A stretch of DNA of 64,000 nucleotides, from positions 8,131,726 to 8,195,725 of the forward strand of contig CM028327.1 of assembly GCA_016647705.1 (NCBI GenBank). Reading direction: 5' to 3'. The notes beneath the pieces are model-generated. The model saw nothing but the letters and a program-made list of their open reading frames with translations, ran no database searches and was not told where the DNA came from. Origin of the DNA: Eucommia ulmoides (lineage: Eukaryota > Streptophyta > Magnoliopsida > Garryales > Eucommiaceae). Positions within the stretch are counted from its first letter, which is position 1. Each line of letters begins with the position of its first letter. The position numbers were made by a program, and so were the translations under genes. This document shows, one piece after another, positions 10,101 through 34,300 of the stretch.

Positions 10101-11654
10101 TTTCTTAAATGTAAACATAACCTGATATATATATCACGGTTTGAGTCGTAGAAACAGTCTCTTGCAAAAAGCATGGTAAGACTGCATACAATAGACCTAA
10201 ATGGTCCAACCCTTCTCCAGACCCCGCGCATAGCGGGAGCTTTGTAACACCGGGCTGTTCTTTTTTTATATATACTAGTGATTGCCCCGAAGGTGACTTC
10301 ATATAAAAAATAATAATTGATAAAAAGTGTTAATTTTTTTATATGTCATTTCTTTTTTCGTTGGAAGGAGTAATTAAAAACAAAATACAAGGAACAACAT
10401 GATCAAATAAAAATTTTAAGTTGCAAGATAAAATTTGATTTGTAATTACAAGGACAAATAATGCAATTAATAACCGCTTGGGAAGTGGAGGTGAGAATTA
10501 TTTGGGCGCAAATCCCCCCCCCCCCCCCCCCCCCCACCGATTTTACAAAACAATCTCATCCATCATTTTTCATTAAAATCAATCTCAACCCTTAAACAAA
10601 ACACAATTTCAAACATTGTCCTGATTTATAATACATAAGTTATGACGGTATTTCAAAATGTTTTTCAATAATGATTGAATTGATTTTGATAAATATTTCA
10701 CACTTCCACTTTCTAGGCAATTTAATTAAATTATATTGTTCACCCTTTAAGTTTCACATTTGTGTTTAATTGACCAATTTTGAAATGTCTTTTTGTTAAT
10801 GGTTGGAATTGATTTGAGAAATATGGATGGACCAGATTACACTATGTAAGTTTGGGGAAAACAAAATTCATGCCTAAAAATTTTACACCTCCACCTCTAA
10901 AGCAGTTGAGTTAAATTACATTTTGTAACCTTTAAGTTTTATATATATACTTTATTAGTCAATTTTTATAATATATTATTTTTTTACACTCGTAAATTTG
11001 AAAATCAATAGTGTCTTCATGCACGGAAAATCCCTAGCTTTATGGGAAAACCCGAATGTTTATATATATATAGCAATGATTAATCCTCCAAACTCCAAGT
11101 AAGTTGAATATTGATACCTAGAATTAAGCTTGCGCCTGGATTCATCCACATGTAGCTCAACTTCAACACCTTCCTCAAGCATAAACTCAATACCAGCAGC
11201 AGCTTCACAATTCTCAAAGAATCCATAGTGAAAAACCTACCCACAATACCAAAAAATCTCATCAAATCCCTCACAAAAACACATAATCAAACACGGATTA
11301 GTGAAAGAACATACGATTCCGTCCTTCGATCTAACATCCTGAACAACAAATTTGAAATAGGGATGGATAATGAATCCATTATCGGAAGGCTGACCACCGC
11401 CTTGCGGATGGAAGATTGTTGAATCAAGCACCAACGAAATTCGACCATTGTCATCCTTCGAAACAATTAATAAATCCCTTAAATCAGTTCAAAATCTAGG
11501 GTTTGTAAATTTCGGCGGCGATTTTTGAAATTTGAATGGAATTTGAATTGAAATTTGAACTAACCAGAATGCGAGAGAGGAGAGTGGCCCTCGATTGAAG
11601 CTTGACCATGTCTTGGTAGTACTCGAGCTTCGTTGGATTTTGAGGATTATCCAT
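7191..11654 (-). CDS. AlaX-type alanyl-tRNA editing protein (8 exons, 257 aa)
   Basis: Exons on the minus strand: 11565-11654, 11315-11455, 11118-11236, 9752-9844, 8467-8569, 8313-8384, 7394-7489, 7191-7250; all borders are GT-AG and the frame is kept throughout to TAG. The product is a free-standing homologue of the alanyl-tRNA synthetase editing domain, which hydrolyses Ser-tRNA(Ala) or Gly-tRNA(Ala) mischarges. It has FHPQGGGQPSD (residues 45-55), RLHSAGHLLD (117-126) and GCPCGGTHVSDISE (220-233); H119/H123 and C223/H227 are the expected zinc ligands of the HxxxH and CxxxH motifs. The length fits plant AlaX proteins without the catalytic domain of AlaRS. Introns 3, 4 and 6 are swollen by a Helitron end, a TRIM copy and MITEs, whereas introns 1, 2, 5 and 7 are 78-143 bp. 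The start ATG at 11654-11652 opens exon 1. Cytosolic or organellar location cannot be told; no obvious transit peptide is seen. Confidence 0.93.
7640..8095. mobile_element. Degenerate MITE-like element in AlaX intron 6
   Basis: The left edge CGTGTTTGATATGCAGG and the inverted right edge GCGTTTGGTACGCTGAAATG resemble each other, and both arms are rich in GGAATGAAATG-type motifs. Target duplication is not clear. Confidence 0.35.
8118..8266. mobile_element. Short foldback MITE (149 bp) in AlaX intron 6
   Basis: The two arms, starting TTAAATGCCTTTTAACCCC and (inverted) TTAATTGCCTTTTATGCCCC, pair over more than 50 bases, so the element is almost all stem. Confidence 0.6.
9232..9512 (-). mobile_element. 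TRIM-type LTR retroelement remnant, copy 2, rearranged, in AlaX intron 4
   Basis: On the minus strand an LTR of about 120 bases runs from TGTTGGGTTTATCCCAC (9512) to about 9393 and is followed by a primer-binding-like TATCAGAGTT and TRIM internal sequence. At the far side a piece of LTR (9232-9300) lies in the opposite orientation, so this copy is rearranged. Non-coding fossil. Confidence 0.6.
10275..10300 (-). mobile_element. Helitron-like 3' terminus in AlaX intron 3
   Basis: CTAG at 10275-10278, preceded by A and followed by a short GC-rich CCCCGAAGG segment, resembles better preserved Helitron 3' ends at 32803, 32993 and 56262 in the same orientation. The hairpin here is weak and the 5' end was not found. 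Confidence 0.35.
10514..10535. repeat. Poly-C run of 22
   Basis: Uninterrupted C homopolymer in AlaX intron 3; its length is likely to be imprecise in any assembly. Confidence 0.9.
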
Positions 11655-13015
11655 TGCTGTAGCAGTTTTCTCAGTGATCTCTGAATCGGATTATGCTTCT
11701 CCTTCTCCGAGTCTGCGCCGGTTGTTATGAATCTTTTGGTCGTGCTTTGAATTACATATTACATGCACTGTAGAAGACGTAGTGACTTGGTTGGGTTTGA
11801 ATTTTAGTCTATAATTTCTGAATTTTTTCAGAAGTGTAAACATAAAAATTACTATAATTTTTATGTAAAAAATTATTGTAACATACGTTGAGTTTGCATT
11901 TTTGACAGAATTATTAGACTTTTCAAAAAATTATTGTAGTACGTGAACCACATAAGTTAAAATTTAATTTTGTGGATTGTTAAAAAAATTAAATAATTAA
12001 ATGAAATTTTAACACTATGCACTCATAAAATTTTGAAAAAAATCTTATTTTAGTCCCTATATTTTCAATTTAAACACATTAAATCTTGAAATATTCAATT
12101 CGTGTTAAATCAATCTAAATTGATAATTTCGTCATTTTATATGACAAAAATCAGCTAAATGTTAAATATGTAATCATTCACATGAGTAAATTTTGTCATA
12201 AAAATGACAGAAAGATTAACTTGATACGATTTGCATATTTCAGATTTTAATGTGTTCAAATTAGAAGAATAAGGACTAACTTAGAATTTCTCTAAAGCTC
12301 AATGGTGCAAAGTACAAAAAGCTCAAGTAATGGAGAGAGAAGGGGGAGAGAGAATGAGGTGACAGAAATCAACTAATTAATTCTATTTTTTCTAATTTTA
12401 TTTCTTTAATTCAACTGTGCAAAATATCTCCTTGTATAGTGGTAAAACTGTTAGATTTAAAATTTTGTTCCAACGGTGTAAAATATCTTACAAGATTAAT
12501 ACTGAATTATTTTATTATATACAAGTGTATACCCGTGCAGGAAGTTTTCAATTTTAATTTGAATCATTAAGTTAGAAGAGGGAGAAAAAAAATAATAATA
12601 AACGTCAATTTAGTATTTAAAATAAATTAGAGAGCGAGAGAGAGAAATAGAACAAGTATTTGGATGAGAGAAGTGCGCATGAGCGGTGCGAGCACTACTG
12701 ACAATGGCAATGGCAAAGGCGTGGAGTCTGTGTTCGTGTGAGAGAGAGGGGCAAACACGCCCTAATGAAATTAGTGTCATTTCCACATCTCAAAACCACA
12801 AATAAATACCAAACAAAAAAAGAACGAACAATTGTATATTTCTTTGTTCAAACAAGAATAGAAGGGAAGTAAATTTCGATTGAGTCACACATAAATGGAT
12901 TAATATACAAATCAATTCATCAAAAATAAAATAAATCATAATGAAATTAGTTTCACTTCCACACATCAAAATCCAAAAAAAAAATAGAGTAGGGAGAGTT
13001 GTGAGATATCGGATC
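11655..13015. other. Gap between AlaX and HSBP genes
   Basis: The first 110 bases on the right of the AlaX start (minus strand upstream) are the likely promoter/5'UTR of AlaX. The rest is AT-rich; a TIR element occupies about 12017-12333 and a sequence at about 12520-12760 (TGTATACCCGTGCAGGAAG followed by a GA-rich stretch) resembles the Helitron-like copy at 32993-33260. No gene is seen. Confidence 0.5.
12017..12333. mobile_element. TIR element related to the one at 13697-14013
   Basis: The left arm reads TTTTAGTCCCTATATTTTC and the right arm, inverted, reads GAGCTTTTTGTACTTTGCACC; the copy at 13697-14013 has the same layout. It is about 317 bp, with no target duplication resolved. Confidence 0.45.
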
Positions 13016-16000
13016 TTATGTCAAGCCCTCGCTTGGTTTTGGCATTGTAGAAGTAGAAGGAGAGCCCTCTTGCCCTATTTCGGTTCGAAGATCATTGATG
13101 CTCTGTTCTAGCTCGTCTATACGGCAGCCCATCTCATCGAGTGATTCAATAGTTAAATGTAACAAATCAAAATTATTAACTCTCTTTCGAGTCTTAAGGC
13201 AGTGTTTGGTTTGGTTTTATAAAATCGGAATTTAGAAATTGAAAATCAGAAAGAATGCATCTAAAAATCTAAGAAAATTTACAAAGTTTGATTCGTATCC
13301 ACCAAACGGTACCTAAAAAAAAAGGGCAAAATATGTAATCTTTTCCATGATTACTATGAGAAATAAATAAATAAAATTAAGTCCCGTGGTAATGCTAATT
13401 TTAAGTATTTTTTAAAATAAAAAATAAGTAATTTGACAAAAAAAATATTTTTACTTAAAAAAAAAAACACAAAAGGGTTTTAATCCATCAATCTCCTATC
13501 TCATAACATAAAACTCGAAGAAATAAATATTAATTATTTTTTATTTTTTGAAAAAAAATACTTAAAAAATATTTTTATTTTATTTTTTTAAAATTAAGGG
13601 CAAAATAAACATTACTATTAATTTTTTTAGTTAAAAACACAAAATAACTAAAAATAATGCAATCAAGTGTTATGTGAAACTCATAAGAATATAGAGGTTT
13701 TTGCACTTTACACCCTAAAATTTCAAAGAAATTCCACTTTAGTCCCTATACTTTCAATTTGAAAGTATTACACCCCAAAATATCCAAATAGTATCAAATC
13801 AGTCCAAATCAATAACTCTGTCATTTTTTTTTTAACGGAAATTAGCCACGTGTCAAAAACAGAATCATCCATGTGGGTAAAGTTCATCATAAAGAATAAC
13901 GGATGGACAGATTTGACACGGTTTAGATACTTGAGGATTTAATATGTTAAAATTAAAAGGACAGGGGATAAAATGGGATCTCTCTGAACTTCAAGGGTGC
14001 AAAGTGCAAAAAGCTCAAAAATGTATGGAGATATTGAAAAGGATATTCTTGGAAATAATAGAGTCAGACATTGCTTGAAACCTAGTTTGCTGAAAGAAAA
14101 AAACAATCAGCAAATAACAGGCAGAAATTCAAATAGAAAGCCTTAAGGGACTGTTTGGTTTCACGAAATTGGAGCCTTAGAATTGGGATATACAAATGAT
14201 CACATGTAAAAATTTAATCGAGATTACAAGCTTTCATTTCCAATTCCGAGATTTCAATTTCGTGCTACCAAACATGACCTAAGAGAAAAGGAAAGCAAAA
14301 ATCTCACCATTTGTTGAAGAAGATTTTGAACCTAAAAGACAAAAAAAAATAGCCAACGGTAAGTATTAGATAAACACGGTATTTAAAACGAGTGGAACTT
14401 CTAATTTATGACAGAACAATGACATAAGGACCGTCGGGTCGTCCTTCAATTCGCAAAGTTGTATTGTTTTTCGAATATTCAAGTTATGAATTGTTATAGT
14501 TTCGTGTTTGGCTGTAAAAGTAACCGTTTTAGTTCTAGTTCATGCTATTTTCTGGTGTAATTAAAATAATATAAAGCTTAGAAAGTTTAGGGATTTTGAC
14601 ACTTTGCACCCTTGAACACATAATACGTTGAAGTTCCGTAATCATCCCACTTCTGTCCAACTCAATAACTCCATTTAAATTTTCAATGACAAATAATCAA
14701 CTGTCACGCACCCAACTATTCTTAAGGTGACTTTATAGCTTTATAGCATTTCCAACCTCTTCCTTTCCTCTTACGAAATTTTCTACGAAAAAACATGTAT
14801 ATAATATAATATATATTATGTTATATGTATATTTTAGAATATTTGGGCAGAAAGAAAGAGGCTAGAATTGCACATAAAACTTCTTAAAATAGTCATGTAC
14901 ATAATAGGTGGCTCATTTCCATCAAAAATTTGTAATGGGGATAATGGTTCGGACTGTATTGGGAAGATTAAGAAACTTTAAGGTGTTGTATGTTCAAATA
15001 GAAACCAAACAAAGTGAACTAAACTAATAGAGTTGTATTATTTATGTTAAAATGTGTGCGTATTTATATATTATATGTTAAATGTATATTTCTGAGTATT
15101 TGGGTGAGAAGGAGACTAGAATTGCTCATAAAGCTTCTTAAAATGGTCAGGTGCATAGTAGGCGTCGTTTTCCATAAAAAATTGTAATGAGGATAATGAC
15201 TTGGACTGTATTAGGATGATTAAGAACCTTTAAGGTGTTATATGTTCAAATCGAAACCATGGGGAACAAAGTGAGATTTTGATCAAACTTCACGGAAACA
15301 AACTACAACGTGTCAAAACCCCCCAAAATTAACTAATTAAAACGTGTGCGTGTATATATATATATATATCATGTTATATGTATATTTTAGAGTATTTGGG
15401 CGGGAAGGAGGAGACTAGAATTGTCCATAAAACTTCTTAAAATAGTCAGGTACATAGCAGGTGACTGTTTTCCATAAAAAATTGTAATTGGGATAATTTG
15501 GACTGTATTGGGATGATTAAAAAACTTTAAGGTGTTAAATGTCCAAACAGAAACCATGGGGAACAAAATGAGATTTTGATCAAAGTTCAAGGGTACGAAG
15601 TGTCAAAACCCCCAAAAATTAACTTCTTGTATGTTTTTTTTTTTCCCGAGAAAATCATAGTTAAATGAAGAAATATACAAATCAATGCATAAAAAATATG
15701 ATAATTCATAAAAATAGAATAATTTAGTCAACCAAACGGGCCCTAAACCTTCTCAAGAAACATGATTTCTTTACAAAAACATAAGCTTGCAACCTGTAGA
15801 AGGTTTGGAACTTACGAAAATTGTCATATCAGCAGTACTCTGTTTCGAATCATCTGTAACATGCCCGTCCTGCCATAAAAATCAGTGAATTTGTATAAAA
15901 AAGTAATTAAATGGATAATTAAGGGAATAATAAGATTTTATTCAATCATTGTGAAGGTCAGATCAAGAGAGGTGTTCTAACTTGGCCTCGTTTGTTAAGG

Positions 16001-17331
16001 GCCGGTTTGGTTGTGTTTTCAAGTAGTAAAACAAAAATAAAAAACGATGTTTTTTCCAATACTCAATAAACACTTTTACAAAAACAATTTCCCCAAAAAC
16101 GTTTGTTAGTGTTTTCTATTCCTTGACTTATGTTTTTGTTCCCAAAAAGGGGAACAGAAACATATACACGAGAAACAAGAAATCAGTCTTTGTACAGTTC
16201 CTGATTTTTTAGCACAAATTTATGGGGAACATAAAGAATTGAATTGTTTTGGATTTTATTGATTAACCAATGTTTTCAGGAACATAAACAGAAATCTGAG
16301 AACAAAAACACTAACGAACACCACCTAATTTGCTAAAATCACAGTTTTAGATATTCATATTCCCAATGTTGAAGCAAAATGCTTAAAAAATTTAGCAGAT
16401 GCGCATCTACGAAAAGAAAAACATATCGAGAAATCTAACGCCCAATGCATAATCGTCTACTGCATTCAAACAAATTTCCAGAGAGATGCTTCGATAAATC
16501 GAATGCGATTAATCCAAACCCTAACTGAATACGAACAGATTCAAAGGACAAGGAAATCAATGCATAAGATTATGAGAAACAGAAAGAATTGAATCATTCA
16601 TGATTTTATTGATTAACCAATGTTTTCAGGAATAGAAACAGAAACCTGCAAACAAAAACACAAACAAACACCACCTAATTTACTAAAATCATAATTTTAG
16701 AAATTCATATCCCCAATGTCAAAGCAAAATGATTCAAAAAATTGGCAGATGCGTGATCTACGAAATGAAAAACACATTGACAAACAACAAATCAAAAAAA
16801 ATTCCAGAGAGATGTTTCGATAAATCAACTGCGATTAATCCAAACCTAACTAGATACGAACAGATTCAAAAAAACAATGAAATTAATGCATAAGACAATG
16901 AGAAACATAAAGAACTGAATTGTTCCAGATTTTATTAATGTACCAAGGTTTTGGGAAACAGAAACAGAAATCTGAGAACAAAAACACTAACAAACGCCAC
17001 CTAATTTACTAAAACAGTTTTAGATATTCATTTCCCAATCTCCAAACAAATTACTTCAAAATTTTAGCAGAAGCGTGATCTACGAAACGAAAAACACATC
17101 AAGAAATCTAATGCCCAATCCATAATCCTCTACCGTATTCAAACAATAGATCAAACAAATTTCCAGAAAGATATTTCGATAAATCGACTGCGATTTAACC
17201 AAACCCTAATTAGATACGAACAGATTCAAACAACGAAATCAAACCATAAGATAATGAATTTCATCATCAATCAATGCCAAACGAGGCTCGCGCAATTCAA
17301 ATTTTCAACTAAAAATCGAAATTATTACCAT
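13016..17331 (-). CDS. HSBP: Heat shock factor binding protein, HSBP1-like (5 exons, 82 aa)
   Basis: Minus-strand exons: 17329-17331 (ATG only), 15816-15869, 14308-14331, 14047-14089, 13016-13140, ending TAA 13018-13016. The frame is continuous across all joins and gives 82 residues, typical for HSBP. The product contains DSKQSTADMTIF, VQNLLQQM, QTRFQAMSDSIISK and IDEMGCRIDELEQSINDLR, the conserved coiled-coil core that oligomerises and binds the trimerisation domain of heat shock factors to damp the heat-shock response. The heptad-rich segment spans about residues 20-65; the tail is Ser/Thr/Pro-rich. Three introns are GT-AG, but the last one begins ATATCCTTTT and ends CAC: only this AT-AC splice restores the K-I-D-E reading known from the family. 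Exon 1 contributes only the start codon, directly followed by GTAATAAT. Introns 1, 2 and 4 are enlarged by MITEs and tandem duplications. Confidence 0.92.
13198..13313. mobile_element. Tourist-like MITE (116 bp) in the HSBP U12 intron
   Basis: Termini GGCAGTGTTTGG and, inverted, GGTACCGTTTGG are flanked by TAA at 13195-13197 and 13314-13316. The element sits about 38 bases from the branch-point-like motif. Confidence 0.75.
13697..14013. mobile_element. TIR element in the HSBP U12 intron
   Basis: Arms TTTTTGCACTTTACACCCT and, inverted, TTTTTGCACTTTGCACCCTT can be followed as imperfect inverted repeats for about 60 bases. Its edge lies only about 33 bases inside the intron from the 5' splice site. 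Non-coding. Confidence 0.55.
14147..14279. mobile_element. Tourist-like MITE (133 bp) in HSBP intron 3
   Basis: Termini GGGACTGTTTGGTTTCACG and, inverted, GGTCATGTTTGGTAGCACG are flanked by TAA at 14144-14146 and 14280-14282. Both arms continue into GAAATTG. Confidence 0.85.
14591..15616. mobile_element. TIR element with internal triplication in HSBP intron 2
   Basis: The left end GGGATTTTGACACTTTGCAC and the inverted right end GGGGGTTTTGACACTTCGTA form TIRs. Inside, a unit of about 260-295 bases (marked by TATTTGGG near 14840, 15098 and 15392, and by AAACTTTAAGGTGTT) occurs three times as imperfect tandem copies. No protein-coding frame is recognised. Confidence 0.5.
15999..16325. mobile_element. 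MITE with TAA duplication in HSBP intron 1
   Basis: Termini GGGCCGGTTTGGTTGTGTTT and, inverted, GGTGGTGTTCGTTAGTGTTT are flanked by TAA at 15996-15998 and 16326-16328. Its right part is included in the tandem repeat that follows. Confidence 0.6.
16238..17270. repeat. Three tandem copies of a unit of about 330-350 bp in HSBP intron 1
   Basis: The motif TTTATTGATTAACCAATG or its variants begins near 16255, 16604 and 16933, and each copy continues through CACCTAATTT, AAATTTCCAGA(G/A)AGAT and GATACGAACAGATTCAAA. The unit includes the right end of the 15999-16325 MITE, so the amplification came after the MITE insertion. Confidence 0.7.
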
Positions 17332-21392: not shown

Positions 21393-24300
21393 TCAAAACA
21401 TCCTTTGCTTCACTCTTCTCCCATTCGAATCACAGCCGTCGATTATGATCTCATCGTGACAAGAAGTGCCCGAATGTTGGCCGATCCTAGCCACATATTC
21501 AAGCAACTCAGTGATCACCGAAGGGCAGCTCTCTTTCAAGTACTCAAATCCATCAGTTTGCATTACCGCTGTCGAAAAAGGGCAATCTAGTCATTTCACT
21601 TGTTTCAGTGTGGAAAAATAAAACATATCATAGTATAGATTAAGGTAGTGTTTGGATGTGCGGAATTGAGGGCTCAGACATGGAATTGAAAATGAACAGA
21701 AAAAAGGGTAATTTAGTCATTTCACTCGTTTCTAAATAGATTCTAGATTAAAGTAGTGTTTGGACTTACGAAATTGAAGGCTCCCAAATGGAATTGAAAA
21801 TGAACAGATAACAAGCATTAAACAAGCGCCGCCTTTCGGTAGCATTTGGTTTCAAGGAATTGGAAAGCCTGGAATTGAAATCGAATCTACGTAAAAACTT
21901 GAAAATTGTTCATGCATTCATTTCTAATTCCAATTCCGAGCCACCAATTGGGATCAGAACATATAAAAAAATTGTTCCCGCTTCTCAGGGACATTTTTGG
22001 GAGAAAATAATTATATATATATAATAATAACAATAAAAATAAAAATAAAAACTAAACACCATCTATATATTCCAAGTCAAGTATATTTTGCTTATAGAAA
22101 ACTACTACTTATATCCTGACCACCAACTCCTTCCCCATCCGATATTGGGATAAACCCAACAACTTCTCCCTCATGCATCGGGCCTTTGATCGGCTAACGC
22201 TTGACCAATCTCTCCCTCTGTGGCTATTGGGCGAGAGATGTTGTAACTACGCTCTGATACCAATAAGTATTTCTCAACCCTAAAAACTACCTCACGAGGT
22301 GAGCAGTGAGCCTTTCCCTACACTTATAACCTAGGAAGCACGGACATGGACACGGCGACACAAAAAATTTCAAAAAACTCCGACACGGCCACGGCTTAGA
22401 CACGTCAATAAATAAATGTATAATTTATGAATTATATATTGTCATTACGTAAATTCTTTCAACCAAAAAAAGAGTCATTATTTTTCCTTTAACTTTAAAA
22501 AAAAAATATTTCAGTTTGACACATTTTTTAACAAGAAAATTAAAAAATAAGTCAATTTTATATTCAAAATTTATTTGTTGGCCAATTTTAGAAATCAACC
22601 TTGTTTAAAGGATTGAAAATAATAAAAAAAAAAAAAAAAAAAACAATTACACATAGCATTTTTTGTTCAAATACTAACTCATTTTTTATTGGATCAAATT
22701 GAAAAGAAAAAATAAAATTTCAAACATAAATATGTTAATTTAAAAACCATAAAGATTATTTGAACAGCCATCCCAAGTTTAAGAGTTATATGTGTAATTT
22801 AACATAAAAATCAACGGGAGGGAGGAATTGATGACTGGGGCTCACCTGCTTGGGAATCGGGATGGTGCATGTATAGTGTATATTTATATACTTATAAAGA
22901 GAGAAACCGAAAGCTCTTGCCACCATTGAACCCTCAAAAGTCAAAACTATCGACTCTCTCTCAAAAGAAAACGGTAGATCTCAAATCTCAATCTCCTCGG
23001 TCACGATTGAAGCAAACAACCAGAATTTCCTCACCACAATGCTCTCTTTCTCAAAAGGTAACGATAGATTCTATTCTCAATCACAAACCATGTCGCCTTT
23101 GTCGTGTGAATGCGTGATTGAGATGAGGGGGGAACCGAGGAGGAGAATTACGCTGCAGAGAGGACTATGGTCTTCGACACGACCTTGTGAGGTGTCCGAC
23201 AAGGCTCCCTCACGTATCGGAAATTAAGAAAAAATAAAGAAAAAATATCGCCACGTTCCGACACGGGCACGTGTCCGACGCGTGTCGGACACCAACACTC
23301 TACCTCCGATGGAGTGTCTGTGCTTTCTAGCTTATAACTTGACCATCAGCTTTTTTTACATCCGATGTGAAATAAATCCAACAATTTTTAGTCCTATATC
23401 TTTTTAAATACTAAAACTGCATTATTAAAATATAATGCCTAATCAGGGCCGGCCCTCGGACTAGGCCAGCAAGGCGGTCCTTTATGGCCCCCAAAGGTTG
23501 GAGCCTCTTCAAATTGACCCTATATTAATATCATGCCAAAAAATAAAATGGTTCAACCACTATATCAAATATATTATTTCTTTTGACATTTTAGTTTTAT
23601 AAAAGTATTATAAGTTATTTAAAAAAAAAAACATCGAGCGATCCCGTTTTCAAATTTCTCCTGGTACCTCTGATTTCCCAGAGCTTGCCCTGTACCTAAT
23701 CATAACTAACTACAATTTAAACGTTCATAGAATGCTATTTCTTATTTAACAACTTGAATATAAAATGAGATGCAAAAATAATTAACACCATAAAAAAATT
23801 AAAAAATAAAAATACCTCTGAGGTTTTCGGGTTGTGCGATGAATCTAAGACAGATGGATTTGAGCTGAGCACAGTGATGTTGTTCGGCCAAAGCTAACGT
23901 GGTGGCTACAGTGTTAATTGCAACATCTTCACAAAGCCTGGATTCGCATATCACTCTCAGCCTCTCCAGTCCATACTGATCGGCTGCTGCAAGAAGATGC
24001 TGAGCCATAATCATGGAAGCCCATTTCGAACAAAGACCGGAATCTTCTTCATGCAAATCCGGTAGATCATCCCAATATATGAAATGGAGTAGCATCTGAA
24101 TTTTAAAAAAAAAATAGAGTTCTTATCATATAGTCTTCTATTTTTGTTTTAAAAGTTTTTTTTTTTTTCCTGTTTATGGAAAAAAAAAATGTAGTCCTTA
24201 TCTGTTTTAAATACAAATTTAACACTAGTAACTCCATACATTGAATTTAGGGTTAATTAGACTTTGTCCGCCTATTGTTTGACCGGATTGCACTTTACAC

Positions 24301-27300
24301 CCGTGCAGTATTTTCATTATCAGTTTGATGAACCCTAGGTTTATTGATAACGACAAATCAACGGATTGAAAGGAAAAATGTGTGAATTTTATTGAAATCG
24401 AAAAACGAACAAACCTCCCGGTATTCAAGAGACCTGGTTCTCTCCCGAAGCCAAAACTTAATATAAATAACTTCACGATATCCTACATACTCTATTCTCC
24501 CCATTTTATAGCCTACCTCTTACCATACACGACCCCTATCATACAAGGTAATTATTAATAATGAAATAATGGGTGATAAAGCTTTCCTAATTTTACCCAA
24601 CATCCTTCCCAAAATATTCCGTAAATCAAGGTAATTCGGAACGGTCATTTCCTTTTTTGCGACGTGTATAACTATACCTAATTGGTGGTCTATCATTACT
24701 TGCCGCCCAAACTTTCACCTTGTCTTCAAGGGGAAACTGAGAAAACTGTTGTTGAATGGTTTCAAACTTCTCCCAAGTGGCCTCAAACTGTGGCATATCT
24801 TTCCATTGAATCATAACTTCAACAAGAGTGGTACCACCAGTGTCCAGGTTGCGCACTCCAAGAACTTCAACCGGCTCTACTCGCAATTCCAGGTCGGGCG
24901 ACAATTGTGGTGGCAAGAGGGAAGAAGAATTGGCCTCCTCATGGGCTCGACGAAATTGGGATACATAAAAGACGGGCTGGACGAACGAGTTGAGAGGTAA
25001 GGACAACTTGTATGCCACCGTGCCCACACGAGCCAAAATTTCAAATGGTCCATAGAAACGCGGGGCAAGTTTTTCGTTGCACCGTGTTGCCGAGGATTTT
25101 TGTCGATAGGGTCGTAACTTCACGAAAATTTTCTCCCCCACCTCAAACTCTTCCTTTCGCCGCTTTGCATCGGCCATGGTCTTCATCTTCTGCTGAGCAC
25201 GCAAGAGATACATTTTGAGTTCGTCTAACTAGATGTCGAACTCTTTCAAGAGCTGCTCTACCGAAGAGACCAAAGTACCCCCTGTTTTGTAACGGATGAG
25301 GGCGGATTCAGCCCATAGAGTGCTTTGAACGGGGTACAGTTAAGGATGTTATGGTACACGGTGTTATACCAGTACTCCGCCCCGGCTAACCATTTGAACC
25401 AAACTCGCGGCTTTTCCAAAACGTAACATCATAAGTATGTTTTTAAGCAGCGGTTCACCACTTCAGATTGCCCGTCTGTTTGAGGATGATAAGTTGTACT
25501 ATGCCGCAACTCCAATCTCTATAGGCGGAATAGTTCTTTCCAAAAAATGACCCAGAAAAACTTTACCGCGATCAGAGATGATAGTGTTAGGGATCCCATG
25601 CAGGCACACGATTTCTCGAAGAAATAGCTCTGCCACTGTCTTAGCTATAAACGGGTGTTTTAAGGGCAAGAAGTTGGCATATTTGGTCAACATGTCTACC
25701 TCCACTAGTATCGTATCCATACTTTCTGACTTGGGCAACCCTTCTATGAAATCCATGGTTAAATCCTCCCATAGCTGGTTAGGTAGAACCAGGGGCTGTA
25801 GCAACCTTGCCGGTGACATGGACATAGATTTGTTTCTTTGACACACCTCACACTGTTGTACCCACTTGGAAACGGCCTCGCGCATGCCCACCCAGAAAAA
25901 AATTAGCGGCTATTCTCTTGTAAGTGCGTTCCTCCCCGAAATGGCCACCCATAGGAGATGAGTGAACCTCCTTCAGAATAGAGGGAAGCAAGGTCGAATT
26001 TTTGGGCAACATCAGACGCTCCTTGTAGTAAACCCGATCATTTGTCAAGGAAAATCCTGTAGATCGCACTTTTCCCTGTTGCAGGTTACCCTTGATTTTT
26101 GTCAGAAATTCATCTCTACCCATTTCTTGCTGCAACGTCTCCCAATCTAGCCATTGGGTGCCAATAAGCTGGTTTAACTCCGGAGGAGGTAGCATCCTTG
26201 ACAATGCGTTAGCCACCTTGTTGCTCGCTCCTAGTTTATATTGAATTTCAAAGTTATATCCCAGTAGCTTGGCCATCCATTTTTGATAGTCTGGTGCCAC
26301 GATTCACTGCTCTAATAAGTGCTTCAAACTTTGTTGATCCGTGTGAACTATGAATTTCCTCCCAAGCAGGTATGGCTACCACTTTTGAATGGCTAAGACA
26401 ATAGCCATTAATTCATTTTCATAGATCAAACGTAGCTTCGCTCGTTACCTTAGTGCCTAGCTATGGTAAGCCACCAGTGGTTCTTCTTACATCAAGAAGG
26501 CACCTAACCCAAACCTAGATATATTGGTTTCAATGACGAATGGTTTGGTGAAGTCTGGGAGGGCTAAAACAAGAACCTTGGTCATGGCTTGTTTGAGAGC
26601 CTCAAATGCCTCCATAGTCGCCGTATTCCACCTGAAACGGTTCTTCAATTGCTCAGTAAGAGGCCTCGCAATCAACCCATACCCCTTGACAAACTTACGG
26701 TAATACCCCGTAAGTCCCAAAAAGCCTCGCAACTCTCGAATTGATCTCAGTTCTGGCCACTCAAGCATGGTTTGCATTTTAGAATTGTCCACCTCTACGC
26801 TGTCGCCTGATATCACGTGTCCCAAATATTCCAAACGGGTACAAGCAAAAGAGTACTTCTTGTGGTTTGCATATAGCCGATACTTGGCGAGAAACTGAAG
26901 ACCACCACCAAGTGATGTGCATGTTCTGCCATACTACGACTGTACACTAAGATGCCATCAAAAAATACTAATACGAAGTGATGACGAAAGACCTGGTTCA
27001 CGAGTGCTTGAAATGTTGCGGGTGTATTAGTTAGCCCAAATGACATGACCAAGAATTTGTAATGACCTTCATGGGTTCTAAAAGCCGTCTTGGGAACATC
27101 CTCGGGCCATACTCGGATCTGATGGTACCCAGACTTCAAGTCGAGCTTGGAGAACACCGTCGCTCCATGTTACTCATCCAGCAACTCATCAATTACTGGT
27201 ATGGGAAATTTGTCGGCCACGGTCTCCCTGTTTAGGGCACGATAGTCTACATTGAATCTCTAGCTCCCGTCTTTCTTTTTTTACTAGTAGGACCGGGCTT

Positions 27301-30300
27301 GAAAATGGGCTCACGCTGGGTTGTATAATCTTGGCTGCCAACATTTCTCGTACTAACTGCTCAATTTCCTCCTTTTGCACCTAGGGGTAACAGTAAAGGC
27401 GAACGCTGATAGTCGAGGTCCCTTCCTTTAAGGTTATGGCATGCTCCTTTCCACGGAATGAGGGTAATTCCATGGGCATCTCAAACACTTGTAATTTTTC
27501 AATACTACTTGGATCTCTTGGGGGACAACAGTCTTCTCTTCTTCAACGACCCCTACAACGCCAAGCTCCACTATATACCCACCTCCTTCGTGTCTAAAGG
27601 TGCAAAACATGGCTTTGAGGGATACCCGCGTTTTGTGCAGAGAGGGATCCCCTTGTAAACTTACTAGGGTGTTCCCCACATTGAATTTCATAGAATGAAT
27701 CTTCCAATTAATGTGAGTCACCCCAAAGTCTCCAACCATTGAATTCCCGGGATGACGTCAGTACTTCCCAAATCCAGCGGTAGAAAGTCCTCTACTATCT
27801 CTACCCCTTGTAAAATCAGGCCTACTCCTCGGCATATCCCTTGTGTTTTGGTGGCTGAGCCTATTCCCAAAATCACCCCGTAAGGTTCCGTATTAGTGAT
27901 GGGGAGCTTCAGGGCTGATACAAGCTTGTTAGAAATAAAATTATGTGACGCCTCACTATCAATAAGTACGACCACCTTTTGGTTACTACTCTCGCCTGCC
28001 AGTTTGAGCGTCTTAGGCGAGGTAAGTCCCACCATTAAATTTAAGGACACCTTTACCACCTGATTTTCAACTTTCTCCTCTTCCACCAGCTTGATCTCTT
28101 GTTCCTCTTCTTGAATCTCATCTTCCGCCGCTTGTGTCTTCGCTTTGTACTCTTGGAGCAGGACCACTTGCAATTCTTGCTTCTTGCAACGATGTCCTGG
28201 TGAGAATTTGTCGTCACATTTATAACAAAGGCCGTGATCTCGCTTATACTATAATTCCGCCTCCGTTAATTTTCGAAATCCTCCCCCTTCGTGAGGCTTT
28301 GTTGGAGGCTTGGTTTCCACTATTGTAGTGCTTCGGCCCGCCGGAGTTTTGACGGGTGGGTAATTAGGGTGCCCAGGCCCACGTGAATAATCAGGCCCAA
28401 TTGAGGCTCAGTTACCCTTGAGCTCTAAATTCTTCGCTTCAATTTTCATTGTTAGGTCCATAGCACTCTCAAGCTCGTTTGGGCCCAATACATTCAGCTC
28501 AGCCCTAATGTCACTCCTTAGCCCATTTATGAATCTAGACTCCAACACTTGTTCAGAGATGTCTTCTAATATTGAGGCCAATTGCTCAAATCTTCTTCCG
28601 TAGTCCCTCATTGTTCCACTTTGCCTTAAAGCCATAAACTCCTCATATCGTGAACCATTGGGAAGAGATCGGAACCGCAGCAGGAGCTGCGATCTGAGTT
28701 CCTCCCAACTCAGGAATGGCCTTCTCTTGTTCTCCCATCCAAACCAGACCAGAGCTTTGCCTTCAAAGTTGATGATGGCTGTCTCTAGCTTCACTACGTT
28801 GGTCAAGCAGTGTAAAGCGAAGTATCTCTCTGTCTTCAGTATCCAGCCGTCGGGGTTCTCTCCATCAAAGGAAGAGAGTTTGATTCTTTTAGGTCGGAGG
28901 TCCCATTGCACAGCCTGAGTCCATTCCTTGCCATGGCCGCCGTCGGCGATGCCGCTTGCCTATTCCGATACCCACGCCGGCGCCGGCGCATGTTGTCCGA
29001 CAGCTTCGGGCCGTTGTTTGTGGTTGTCGAAAGCCAAGATTGCGTCGATGGCATCGTTCCCTTGCCCTGGTACCTTCGCCGACGCCGTCGCACATCATCC
29101 GACAGTCTCGGAACGTCGTTCGGGCTCGTCGGTTGTCCAGATCTCGTTGGCGGCGGAGCTCGCCTGGTCCGGCGCCTTAGCCGACGTTGGCACATGTCGT
29201 CCCACCGCCTCGCGACGTTGTTTGCGCTCTTCGTTCGCCCAGATTTCGTTGTTGACTCGATTCTGGCCTTGGGCTTCACTTTCACACGCTGTTGTTTCAT
29301 TCTACATCTTCAAGAGTTGGTCGATCTTCCTGGCCAATGCCACAAGACCTTGCTCCAAATTAGGTATTTTCATCATCTCCTTCTTGATTGCTCCTAACTC
29401 CTCTGCACGGTGTTCATGGTTCCTTCTACTATTTCAACCCTAGTATCCATCCTTATTACCATAGGCCCATAAACTACTTAGATGCTAAATGATGAACTCT
29501 AGGTTTATTGATAACGACAAATCAACGGATTGAGAGGGAAAATGTGTGAATTTAATTGAAATCGAAAGATAAACAAACTTCCAGGTATTCAAGAGACCTG
29601 GTTCTCTCCCTAAGCCAAAGCTTAATATAAATAACTTCACGACATCCTACATACTCTATTCTCCTCATTTTATAGTTTACCTTTTACCATACACGACCCC
29701 ACTCATACAAGGTAATTATTAATAACGTAATAATGGTTGATGGAGCTTTCCTATTCTCACCCAACATCCTTCCCAAAATATTCCGTAAATCAAAGTAATT
29801 CGTAACGGTCATTTCCTTTCTTGCGATGTGTATATACCTAATTGGTGGTTTATCACAGTTTCCCTCCCATCTGAGTTAGAGTTAAAGTACAACGATTACA
29901 TTTTCCGTTATCTTCTCCCCAATTCTAAGCCTTAAATTTAACAAACAAGAGAGAGGAAGAAGCATAGACTAAAAGTGCAACGGTTGCATTTTTTGTTTTC
30001 TCCTCCCTAGTTCTAAGCCTTAAATAGCACAAACAAGAGAAAGGAAGAAAAAACACATTCTATTCCATTTATCTTATCCCCAATTCTCTCAATCCACGCA
30101 AAACCTTAAGCTTGCGTTTGGGTAAGGTATTTGACAAATTCAAGGTATTTGACAAATCCAAATCTCTTGTTTGGATAACTATTTTAACTGACGTATTTGA
30201 TCATGTAATTTTACAATTTCTTTGTTTGGATAAGTGAAGTATTTGTAAACAAAATTCTCAAAATACACAAAATTTACAAAATTTACAAAAGAACAAAGAA

Positions 30301-32738
30301 CCCTAATTGACAAAAATTCTCAAAATTCACAAAAATCATTACATCGGATCTTCACAAAATAAACAAATTGGACGGTGACCGAATAGACGAAGGACGACGA
30401 TGACCAAAATGGACGAATTGACGAAGGACGACGATGACCAAATTGGACGAAGGATGACGATAACCAAATGAAGCTTCAATTCCCGCCTCTGTACAACGAC
30501 CAAATTGGACGAAGGACGACGATGCAAAGACGAAGACAACAACGATGACTTGCGAAGACGACGGCGATGGACGAAGTTGCAAACGAAGACGACGGCAATG
30601 GACGAAGCTGCAGACGAAGACGACGACGAAATTTGAACCCTAAAACCTAGATGTACACCAAATTGGACGACGACTGAACGATGGCCGACAAACAAGGAAA
30701 CGACGGACGACCAAGAAGCAGGAGACCACTGCGAATAAGGAAGAAGACAACTACGAAAAAGAAGGAAGAAGACGACTGCGAAGGAGCAGGAGACGCAATT
30801 TGTGAAATCCTCTCTTGGATGAATTTGGGAAATGACACCTATTTCAAAGTTATTTCTAAATCCCTCGTTGGCCGACAAACAAGGAAACGACGGACGACCA
30901 AGAAGCAGGAGACCACTGCGAAAAAGGAAGAAGACGACTACGAAAGAGAAGGAAGAAGACGACTGCGAAGGAGCAGGAGACGCGATTTGTGAAATCCTCT
31001 CTTGGATGAATTTGGGAAATGACACCTATTTCAAAGTTATTTCTAAATCCCTCGTTTCACCTTTTTTTTTAAGATACAAGGTTTTGACAAATTCCTTTTT
31101 ATAAATACCCAAACAAGGTATTTGTTAAAAAAGAATTTTGAAATCCCTTACCCAAATGAAATCCCTCCCCCAAATCGCTTACCCAAACACAACTTAAATT
31201 TACCAAACAGAAAGAAAACACATTCTCTTCCATTTCGCTTCTCCCCAATTCTATCAATCCAAACAAAGCCTTAAATTTCCGAAACCAGAGAAATGGAGAA
31301 AAAACACATTCTCTTCCATTTCTCTTATCCCCAATTCTCTCAATCCACGCAAAGCCTTAAATTTACCAAACAAGAGAAACAGAGAGAAAGCACATTCTCT
31401 TCCATTTCGCTTCCCCCCAATTCAATCAATACAAACAAAGCCTTAAATTTAACAAGCAAGAGAAACGGAGGAAAAACATTTTCTTCCTCTCTTCTCCCTA
31501 ATTCTACCAATCCAAACAAAGCCTTCAATTTATCAAACAAGAGAAACGAAAAAAACCACATTCTCTTCCATTTTTCTTTGACCCAATTCACAATCCAAAC
31601 GAAACCTTAAAGTTACCAAACAAGAGAAACGAAGAAAAACCACATTCTCAGGCCCCAGGTTTTTGTAATTGCCTCAATTCAGTGACTCGTGGAGTTGCAA
31701 TTTATTTTCTGAATGTGTTAGTTTATAGTGTAAAAATTGATATGCCTATTCACCCCCTTCCCACGCTATTTTATTAAAACCGGAAATTTTCATCTTCATC
31801 ATCGATCTTCTAGACTTTCTCCCCATTTCTCTCAATCCAAATGAAGGCTTCAAGTTAGCAAATAAGAGATTGACAGAAACCCCAAAAATTCCCCTTTCCC
31901 CCATTTTTCTAAATCCAAACGAATCCTAAATATATATAAAATTAAATTTTAAAAAATGCATTGTTTTACTAGATAGGGAAGAGTCCTTACCTTGAAAACC
32001 GGAGCCTCTACTTCATTGATTTTGACGCGCTCTGTATTATGATCTTTCATTGGACCGTAGAGTTGTGCATGGAAAACGGGAGATCGAGCAGCGAGAATCA
32101 CCTTATGAGCCGTGAAAATCTCACCGTCCACTTCAAAGATGATATCGGATCCCAATCCAGTCTCCAATAGCTTTCCAAAATGTCGGCCAATATCAGACGG
32201 TGGAGAAGCTATGGAGTAAACTTTGGGGCCCTCCCTCTGAGTCCTAACAACACCGACGGTGCAACGGATCGAAAGACAATCATTTTTGAGGTATTCAGAA
32301 GCTTCTAGAACCGTCCTCTTGATTAACCGTTTATAACCCCTACATTTTCACAAAATAAAAAACAAAAAAACATTTGTATTATAAATCAGGACAATATGGG
32401 CTCCACACATAATTTATTGTCAATAGAACAATTGAGATCTATTAGAAGAGATTTTGAGTTAATCTCAACTATTTAATTGAAGAGATACTTCATCATTTGG
32501 ATTACATATAGAGAAATCTTACCTTCTGTATACATCTACGTTATAAATCAGGACAGTGTGAATATAACTTATCATCATTTGATTAACTTGAACTTTTATT
32601 AGAATGGATTTCATATAACTCCGTCTACACAAACATTTCAAATCATCTCGAATGCATTCATCCGTCTTTTCCAACTCACAGTGGTCTTTCGTTTTTATTC
32701 GAATGGGTTATATAAAATCTACACTAAATTATGTTTCC

Positions 32739-32785
<47 letters not shown>

Positions 32786-34035
32786 GTGCACACACACACA
32801 CACTAGTATATACACTATGCCTAAAGGCATTAATTCTAATTCAATACATTAACCTTGAGTATCCTATACATAGTTCAAATACATTAACTATGAAAAGACA
32901 CTTTATTGAAAGTTTGTCATTTAGTTTCTCAACAAATCTAAATCAAAGGTTAGAAATATCTAAAACATATATACAACATATATATGTATACACTAGTGTA
33001 TGCCCCATGCATGAAGGCACAGATTTTAATTTAAATAATTAAACTGAAAAAAAAAAAAAAAAAAAAAAAAAAAAGGTTAAACATCAAGTGCGATGGTTTC
33101 GGTATGTTCAATAAGAAGATGGAGAGAGGGTGATTCATGAACGGATGGGAGCCAAAAGGCATGCATGAGTAGAGAGAGAGGCGGGGACAATCAGGGATGG
33201 CGATGGCATGAAGTCTTTTTGTGAGTGTAAAAGAGAGAAAGAGGCGCATATCAGAGATTGAAGATAGATGAGGTGCCGACTAACCCTAATGTTTGCTGTT
33301 TGATTTCAACAATTGCATCTAAAATTTGATCCAAAGGTCAAAAAATGTTTCAATTTTTAACACAAATAAAAAAAACCCTTTATTACACTATGAATATTGC
33401 TTCCAAATTTCATCATTTATCTCCCAGGCATTAATTCAAACACCTTGTATGCATTCAACTCTTGACCGTTGATTAACCACCATTTCAACAATCTTGAGCA
33501 AAAATTCCCATATCCGGATTCACATTATTCAGATTCTAAAAATTAATTCACCAAGTATGAACATGAATTTGATTATTAGAAAGAAAAAAAAAAATGGTAA
33601 AAAAATAAGTAGAGAGACTCACCACATGCTTCCCCTGTTCTTGAGCGTGTACGGACCGCTATCCAAAGCCCTCCCAAAATGCGTATGAACTTTGTGCCTC
33701 CCGTTGCCGCTCTGATCCAACAGCGATAATTCAAACAACGCCCTCACGTCCTCCTCGTTGCTCACCAGTGCGATGAACAGAGACACGTACGTCGCGTTGT
33801 CCTCGACGCACTTCCCGTCGGGGTAGAAATAGATCGCCCAGCAATGTCCGCCGACCACGAACGTGTCGGAAAATATGTATTTTCCGATTCCGATACCCTT
33901 CGACAGCGAATAACCGGTGATTTTGAACTCGTGGGACCCATTCACTGTCTCGGTTCGGTAGGTCGACGTCGTGGTTGTCGCCGGCGAAGACGAATTCGAG
34001 AGACTTCCAGCTTCTTCCTTGAAAACCCTAACCAT
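21393..34035 (-). CDS. BPM: MATH-BTB protein, BPM type CUL3 adaptor (4 exons, 405 aa)
   Basis: Minus-strand exons: 33623-34035, 31991-32339, 23816-24095, 21393-21568; GT-AG borders, continuous frame, stop TGA 21395-21393. The start is ATG 34035-34033 ([10 protein letters not shown]). The MATH domain (about residues 25-155) shows [38 protein letters not shown] and [12 protein letters not shown]; the BTB domain (about 200-315) shows [35 protein letters not shown] and [13 protein letters not shown]; the C-terminal BACK-like part shows [20 protein letters not shown] and [19 protein letters not shown]. Plant BPM proteins bridge CUL3 to substrates such as ERF/AP2, HD-ZIP and MYB factors for ubiquitination. 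The length is typical. Introns are 1.28, 7.9 and 2.2 kb, made up largely of transposons (a chromovirus, a Harbinger-like element, TRIM, hAT, Helitron ends), so a 1.2-kb coding sequence spans 12.6 kb. Confidence 0.95.
21644..21960. mobile_element. Truncated Tourist-like MITE ends in BPM intron 3
   Basis: TAA followed by GGTAGTGTTTGGATG (21644) and, 110 bases on, TAAAGTAGTGTTTGGAC repeat the same left end and flank in tandem; a third related piece (GGTAGCATTTGGTTTC) starts near 21838. Matching right ends are not clear. Confidence 0.4.
22100..23383 (-). mobile_element. TRIM-type LTR retroelement, copy 3, interrupted by a hAT element, in BPM intron 3
   Basis: On the minus strand the 5' LTR starts TGTTGGATTTATTTCACATC (23383), is interrupted by the hAT insertion, and resumes to the perfect initiator-Met primer binding site TGGTATCAGAGC (22262-22251). 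The second LTR starts TGTTGGGTTTATCCCAATA at 22161. The short internal part matches copies 1 and 2. TRIMs are non-coding; this one looks structurally recognisable but decayed at its far end. Confidence 0.7.
22331..23330. mobile_element. Non-autonomous hAT element (1000 bp) with 8-bp target duplication
   Basis: Termini CTAGGAAGCACGGACA and, inverted, CTAGAAAGCACAGACA (14 of 16 match) are flanked by identical octamers CTTATAAC at 22323-22330 and 23331-23338. Subterminal ACACG/GTGTCCGACACG motifs cluster at 22340-22400 and 23250-23295. An 8-bp duplication is diagnostic of hAT. Interior open frames are short and unlike a transposase. Confidence 0.88.
24250..24325. mobile_element. Left arm of a Mutator-like MITE, cut by the chromovirus
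   Basis: GGGTTAATTAGACTTTGTCC and GACCGGATTGCACTTTACAC are the family's arm motifs; the arm stops at the LTR retrotransposon insertion at 24326. The other arm beyond 29860 was not recognised. Confidence 0.45.
24326..24695 (-). repeat. 3' LTR of the chromovirus
   Basis: It is 370 bp, TG...CA bounded, paired with 29490-29855, next to target duplication CAGTT. Confidence 0.9.
29490..29855 (-). repeat. 5' LTR of the chromovirus
   Basis: It is 366 bp, TG...CA bounded, and followed on its right by the target duplication CAGTT at 29856-29860. Confidence 0.9.
30110..31194. mobile_element. PIF/Harbinger-like non-autonomous element (1085 bp) inserted in the minisatellite
   Basis: Ends GCTTGCGTTTGGG and, inverted, AGTTGTGTTTGGG are flanked by TAA at 30107-30109 and 31195-31197. 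Joining the flanks gives CCTTAAATTTACC, exactly as in intact minisatellite units nearby, which confirms both boundaries. The interior is rich in GACGA/GAAGA triplets and has a 187-bp direct duplication. Long open frames over it are low-complexity, and no transposase is recognised. Confidence 0.85.
30684..31057. repeat. 187-bp direct tandem duplication inside the Harbinger-like element
   Basis: GCCGACAAACAAGGAAACG starts at 30684 and again at 30871, and both copies run to AAATCCCTCGTT with few differences. Confidence 0.85.
32743..32800. repeat. TA and CA microsatellites in BPM intron 1
   Basis: TA repeat to 32781 followed by a short CA run, next to a Helitron 3' terminus. Confidence 0.85.
32803..32992 (-). 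mobile_element. Helitron-like 3' terminus (copy b) in BPM intron 1
   Basis: On the minus strand the end reads hairpin ATGCC-tttA-GGCAT (32830-32817), a 10-base spacer, then CTAG (32806-32803) with T as next host base. These are the Helitron 3' rules (short hairpin, 10-12 bases, CTRR, insertion in AT). The 5' end is not found and another terminus starts only 190 bases to the right. Confidence 0.55.
32993..33300 (-). mobile_element. Helitron-like 3' terminus and body (copy c) in BPM intron 1
   Basis: CTAGTGTATGCCCCATGC followed by ATGAAGGCAC aligns base for base in length with the terminus at 56262. The body to the right includes a poly-A tract (about 33047-33074) and a GA-rich stretch similar to 12600-12760. 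The far boundary is uncertain. Confidence 0.5.
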
Positions 34036-34300
34036 CGGAGAATTCAAGCTGATTGCGATTCAGTTTGGAAATTGAATTGAATTCGTAATTTAGGGTTCTT
34101 CAATTTTACTAAAGAAGATCCTCTGATTTTCAATTCGAATTTAGGGTTTCCGATGGAAAATCGAAAGCTTCGATTTGTGATTTGGGTTGAGCAAGAAGAT
34201 GATGGAAGGCTCGAAACTGGAGTTTTTGTGGGGTTTATGATTATGCTCTGTTGAGGAATTTGAGAGAGAGAGAGAGAGAGAGAGAGTCAGCTATGGTGGC
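34036..34300 (-). promoter_or_regulatory. BPM 5'UTR / proximal promoter with GA microsatellite
   Basis: The region upstream of the BPM start holds several AGGGTTT-like leader motifs and a GA run at 34262-34286 (CT on the coding strand), common in plant 5' leaders. The TATA box and transcription start were not fixed. Confidence 0.4.

Follow-up and report, generated by a model that had tools for sequence, protein, structure and literature searches.

What kind of intron closes the coding sequence of the HSBP gene in this stretch of Eucommia ulmoides DNA? The preliminary description proposed that it is an AT-AC intron of the U12 type in a gene that encodes a heat-shock regulator. We analyzed the whole stretch of 64,000 nucleotides (hereafter, the window), in which the HSBP gene lies on the minus strand of contig C3 of the 947-Mb genome. 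On the sequence evidence set out below, we put at roughly 95% the probability that the last coding intron of this gene is an ordinary, functional U12-type AT-AC intron that predates the split of the two HSBP copies found in the genome. The coding parts of the gene are as follows:

17329..17331, minus strand: candidate start codon, an ATG that closes an upstream exon and is followed by GTAATA, from a pattern search, one of two candidates and of low confidence
15816..15869, minus strand: HSBP coding exon DGHVTDDSKQSTADMTIF, 54 nt, followed by GTAAGT, a U2-type donor (tblastn with an HSBP query, and sequence)
14308..14331, minus strand: microexon VQNLLQQM, 24 nt, with the U2-type flanks TTTTAG and GTGAGA (tblastn with an HSBP query, and sequence)
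14047..14089, minus strand: HSBP exon 3, QTRFQAMSDSIISK plus one base, 43 nt, with a phase-1 end (tblastn with an HSBP query, and sequence)
13016..13140, minus strand: HSBP last coding exon (exon 4), IDEMGCRIDELEQSINDLRTEIGQEGSPSTSTMPKPSEGLT, with a codon split with exon 3, and the stop codon (sequence)

The start codon must be placed on a further exon, upstream of the exon that encodes DGHVTDD. Two introns precede the AT-AC intron and have the borders GTAAGT...TTTTAG (1484 nt) and GTGAGA...TTTCAG (218 nt). The part of the joined protein that starts at VQNLL matches the HSBP1 family PF06825 with 79.4 bits (1.7e-22; cut-off of 28.6), and the longer protein matches the HSBP1 structure 3ci9 at 7e-11. 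The protein predicted from the spliced sequence is a member of the HSBP1 family.

Between exons 3 and 4, the following features were located:

13141..14046, minus strand: U12-type AT-AC intron, 906 nt, phase 1 (sequence; the same intron is present in the paralogue at L006:3171-1958)
14037..14046, minus strand: U12-type 5' splice site ATATCCTTTT, which contains the ATATCCTT of PMC2426677
13152..13157, minus strand: probable branch site TTTAAC, a weak motif whose last A is 12 nt before the intron end (sequence)

Exon 3 ends in ...ATTATTTCCAAGA at 14047, the intron, which is 74% A+T, starts with ATATCCTTTTCA at 14046 and ends in ...TTTAACTATTGAATCAC at 13141, and exon 4 begins with TCGATGAGATGGGC at 13140. 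The preliminary description had the intron start with ATATCCTTTT, end in CAC, and carry a TTTAAC motif with its A at 12 nt from the 3' end, and the minus strand (14046-13141) confirms this reading to single-base precision. The junction cannot slide in either direction, as the intron is preceded by an A but ends in C, and it begins with A where exon 4 begins with T. We listed all GT-AG, GC-AG, and AT-AC splice pairs that have a donor within 14079-13950 and an intron of at least 60 nt and that keep both DEMG and ELEQSINDLR in frame. Among the 24 frame-keeping pairs (21 AT-AC, two GC-AG, and one GT-AG), a single one, AT at 14046 with AC at 13141, yields an intact ...SIISKIDEMG... without gain or loss of residues. 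The claim that no other splice restores the SIISK-IDEMG junction is thus upheld across the GT-AG, GC-AG, and AT-AC pairs that keep the frame.

The mere presence of the donor motif carries little weight. A single ATATCCTTTT is present in the window, where 0.66 would be expected by chance over the two strands (~5e-6 per position), and RTATCCTT shows no enrichment, with five occurrences found and 6.33 expected. The donor exceeds chance because it is placed at the exact boundary defined by the protein (~5e-6), not because the motif is present. The published AT-AC consensus consists of the donor ATATCCTT and the branch motif TCCTTAAC located 10–15 bases from the intron end (PMC2426677). The donor matches it at 8/8 positions, both in the window copy and in the paralogue. 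The branch motif matches at 5/8 positions in the window copy, without the TCC part (the chance of at least 5/8 being ~0.23), and at 6/8 positions in the paralogue (chance of ~0.04), and a TTAAC would be found by chance at 10–15 nt from the intron end with a probability of ~0.017. The branch A lies 12 nt from the intron end in the window copy and 13 nt in the paralogue, both within the 10–15 nt range, and the optimum for this distance is reported as 11–13 nt (PMC3584512). Because its branch motif matches at only 5/8 positions and lacks the TCC part, the HSBP intron of the window could be spliced inefficiently.

The second HSBP gene of the genome, on contig C5, is a diverged paralogue (L006). 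A protein search of the 947-Mb genome with E values up to 10 returned four places, namely, two exons of the window gene and two exons of the C5 gene, and it missed the short exons in both. The paralogue has matching exons, including a 24-nt microexon that reads VQNLIQQM (L006:3328-3351) where the window copy reads VQNLLQQM, and its candidate start is an ATG followed by GTGAGT at L006:8533. Its intron at L006:3171-1958 (1214 nt) has the borders AAGA/ATATCCTTTTTTC ... GGCTTAACTGAAAGTGTTAC/TCGATG, interrupts the gene at the same base and in the same phase as the window intron, and carries the same series of signals, ATATCCTTTT ... CTTAAC ... AC. The two proteins are 65% identical, with a shorter C terminus in the window copy, and the exons share 72% DNA identity over 207 nt (69 codons). 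The dN of the pair is 0.15–0.17, and its dS is saturated under NG86, which returns no value, and ~1.9 by LWL85. When the two introns were aligned end to end, the score of -58 was no better than that of shuffled sequences (mean of -70.5, sd of 10.7, 30 shuffles), and BLAST with the low-complexity filter off gave only scattered local matches between them, A+T-rich or repeat-like, with a best E value of 6e-6. That ATATCCTTTT, TTAAC, and AC are common to both introns after such divergence has selection on U12 splicing as its best explanation. Judged from this comparison, the AT-AC intron is very probably older than the HSBP duplication.

When 1160 stop-to-stop frames of the window, each 30 aa or longer, were compared with a 69.8-kb region that surrounds the paralogue, 22 rows were obtained at 1e-4. 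They comprised HSBP exons and short stretches that by eye resemble repeats, and no shared neighboring gene was seen. A search of prokaryote and virus contig collections found no HSBP relative there, a result that is uninformative on other plants.

Part of the interior of the window intron is made up of a repeat:

13694..14016, no strand assigned: inverted-repeat, MITE-like element within the intron, with two 113-nt arms that are 76% complementary (sequence)

Of the 906 bases of the intron, 323 belong to this element. Its ends resemble TTTTTGCACTTTGCACCC, and the one nearer the donor lies 30 nt from the start of the intron. A related copy, 71% identical, is found just downstream of HSBP at 12007-12324, and a partial end at 14594. 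Short repeats at 13190-13330, in the U12-type intron, and at 14139-14280, in a U2-type intron, have a common TTAAGG...TGTTTGGTTT start, and beyond these starts, no mutual match was obtained at 1e-5.

Several other features of the window were noted. On the minus strand, just downstream of HSBP, exons of an alanyl-tRNA-synthetase-like protein at 11100-11660 match positions 486-550 of the 552 of PF01411 (39.5 bits), and this protein may be an editing protein of the AARSD1 kind. At 10514-10535, amid an A+T-rich region, stand 22 consecutive C. Also on the minus strand are a MATH domain exon (33619-34047) and a BPM/SPOP BACK exon (23799-24095), with broken retrotransposon genes in the form of a reverse transcriptase (26813-27157) and a Tf2-1-like SH3 domain (24626-25213). 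The MATH and BACK exons (23799-34047) may form one BPM-type gene with a long intron that holds these broken retrotransposon genes.

The genome also encodes a component of the machinery that such an intron would use. At least four U6atac matches scored over the Rfam cut-off when 46 of the 44,191 first-look candidates were scored, and none of the 14 control genomes had a match. The best of them reached 86.8 bits over its full length and contains AAAGGAGAGA and a T run; this AAAGGAGAGA stretch is the one that we take to pair with the donor. The U6atac-like copies, L013-L016, are located on C17, C13, C5, and C13, respectively. In L014, the AAAGGA stretch is changed to AAATGAG and much of the 3' stem region is absent, and this copy is probably a pseudogene. 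An Rfam search over the whole window gave no match.

U11 and U6atac read the U12-type donor, and U12 pairs with the branch region. In the HSBP transcript, U11 and U6atac would thus read ATATCCTTTT, U12 would pair with the region of TTTAAC, and AAGA would be joined to TCGATG by the minor spliceosome, so that the coiled coil SIISKIDEMG is restored. The splice signals, the reading frame, the paralogous intron, and the U6atac genes are all present in the DNA, and it is from them that we infer splicing of the RNA at 14047/13140, the spliceosome used, and these snRNA contacts. The splice signals would have been kept by selection since the copies separated, and the intron interior would have been replaced, in the window copy partly by the MITE-like element. 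The identification of an AT-AC intron of the U12 type in HSBP made in the preliminary description is supported by the splice signals, by the identical intron of the paralogue, and by the presence of U6atac in the genome.

Other readings of the locus have to be weighed against this one. That the intron is an ordinary GT-AG or GC-AG intron with coincidental AT-AC borders is hardly credible, as the one GT-AG and the two GC-AG pairs that keep the frame all remove conserved residues of the coiled coil and bring in residues encoded by the intron. It is slightly less implausible, although still very improbable, that the AT-AC intron is spliced by the major (U2) spliceosome. AT-AC introns spliced in this manner are known, for example, in sodium-channel genes, but these have a G at position +5 (PMC2831892), whereas both HSBP copies have a C at this position along with the full U12 donor. 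In addition, no polypyrimidine tract is visible by eye before the AC in either copy.

The remaining alternative concerns the gene rather than the type of its intron. The window copy could be a gene in decay that has lost the splicing of its last intron, with the C5 copy being the working one, and the repeat element 30 nt from the donor, the weak branch motif, and the shorter C terminus of the window copy all point in this direction. However, its four coding exons found are all open and its splice sites are intact. The dN of 0.15–0.17 against a near-saturated dS over 69 codons also points to purifying selection for the two copies taken together, not for the window copy by itself. We regard decay as improbable, if somewhat less so than splicing by the major spliceosome. 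A functional U12-type AT-AC intron is the reading that we retain.

If the HSBP intron is spliced slowly or poorly by the minor spliceosome, its retention would follow, the coiled coil would lose its second half, and less functional HSBP would be made. Retention leads to an early stop in both paralogues. The window copy would read SK-NILFNISIHF-stop, ending 10 codons into the intron, and the paralogue GK-NILFSLLLFNLNGYSKYKII-stop, ending 20 codons into it; in both copies, IDEMG and all that follows, the second coiled-coil half, would be lost. As no later coding intron exists, the retention product may escape junction-dependent decay. One could imagine that the U12-type intron acts as a stress-responsive gate, where stress alters the capacity of the minor spliceosome, and with it the ratio of spliced to truncated HSBP and the speed of heat-shock shut-off. 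In its broader form, this proposal would have flowering-plant HSBP keep a U12-type AT-AC intron before the second coiled-coil half as a brake, with a heat-changed minor-spliceosome capacity setting the amount of working HSBP and the duration of the heat-shock response. HSBP does attenuate the heat response in Arabidopsis (PMC12582567), stress-activated p38 in human cells stabilizes and raises U6atac and increases minor splicing (PMC3728624), and heat alters the splicing and lowers the transcripts of Brassica rapa HSBPs, the introns being unnamed in the section of the source that reports it (PMC10499616). On the other hand, only 21 of the 786 altered introns in a heat study of an Arabidopsis TFIIS mutant were annotated as U12-type (PMC8886746), and a pan-eukaryotic survey of more than 3000 genomes argues that minor introns may owe much of their evolution to neutral processes (PMC10639083). 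Our literature search found no account of a heat-sensitive plant minor spliceosome. The published stress data that bear on a link between HSBP and minor splicing are at most suggestive, and both the gate and its broader form seem doubtful to us.

Comparison with other plants bears on how widely the intron is shared. Arabidopsis HSBP1 is described as having five exons of the classes 0,0,0,0,2 (PMC10499616). In our model, the start phases are also 0,0,0,0,2 if the separate ATG exon is counted (ATG, 54-nt, 24-nt, 43-nt, and the last exon with its two split-codon bases). We infer that the published notation gives the start phases of the coding exons; if so read, the equality of the two series indicates that the position of the AT-AC intron is probably common to Arabidopsis HSBP1. 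In rice OsHSBP1, exon 5 was targeted (PMC12922113), which is consistent with five exons. Both of these plant genes belong to the HSBP family, as does the window gene. Two Brassica rapa HSBP genes are reported with two and four exons and other classes (PMC10499616), and these exon counts, as published, do not fit a strictly conserved HSBP structure. The portions of the publications considered do not mention the intron class for the HSBP genes of Arabidopsis (AT4G15802), Brassica rapa (PMC10499616), rice (PMC12922113), or tomato (PMC6678839, in which neither "intron" nor "exon" appears).

Among the closest known parallels are other U12-type AT-AC introns, such as intron 4 of plant CBP20 (PMC5932401). 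They resemble the HSBP intron in their AT-AC ends, the U12 donor typical of the class, a branch A near the 3' end, a high A+T content, and a constant position despite variable length (in CBP20, 76 to 2733 nt). Unlike CBP20, the host gene here is HSBP, a negative regulator of heat-shock factors, and the branch site is weaker (TTTAAC without the TCC). As with the human minor introns gated by U6atac abundance (PMC3728624), the host gene of the HSBP intron is a regulatory one that also has major-type introns, and retention of the minor intron would remove function; unlike them, the HSBP intron belongs to a plant gene, and any gating of it is hypothetical. AT-AC introns are rare in plants, as the preliminary description had stated: a representative Arabidopsis annotation counts 81 of them beside 117,732 GT-AG introns (PMC5716242). 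Their share of the annotated Arabidopsis U12 introns is given as ~26% (PMC7367187) and, by another count, as 4.8% (PMC5932401). No paper joining HSBP and U12 introns was found in the literature searched, with intron databases (U12DB, ERISdb, and IAOD) and supplements being outside this search, so a prior listing is possible. The HSBP intron is a member of a well-known class and perhaps already listed in the U12 databases.

The HSBP intron is at present a well-supported but unexceptional case of an intron class that is already known. In each of the two HSBP copies found in this plant genome, the last coding intron is of this rare class, and annotation pipelines that expect GT-AG borders would misplace it, damaging the conserved coiled coil. 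If other plants also have the intron, it would connect minor splicing with the shut-off of the heat-shock response in a specific way that can be tested.
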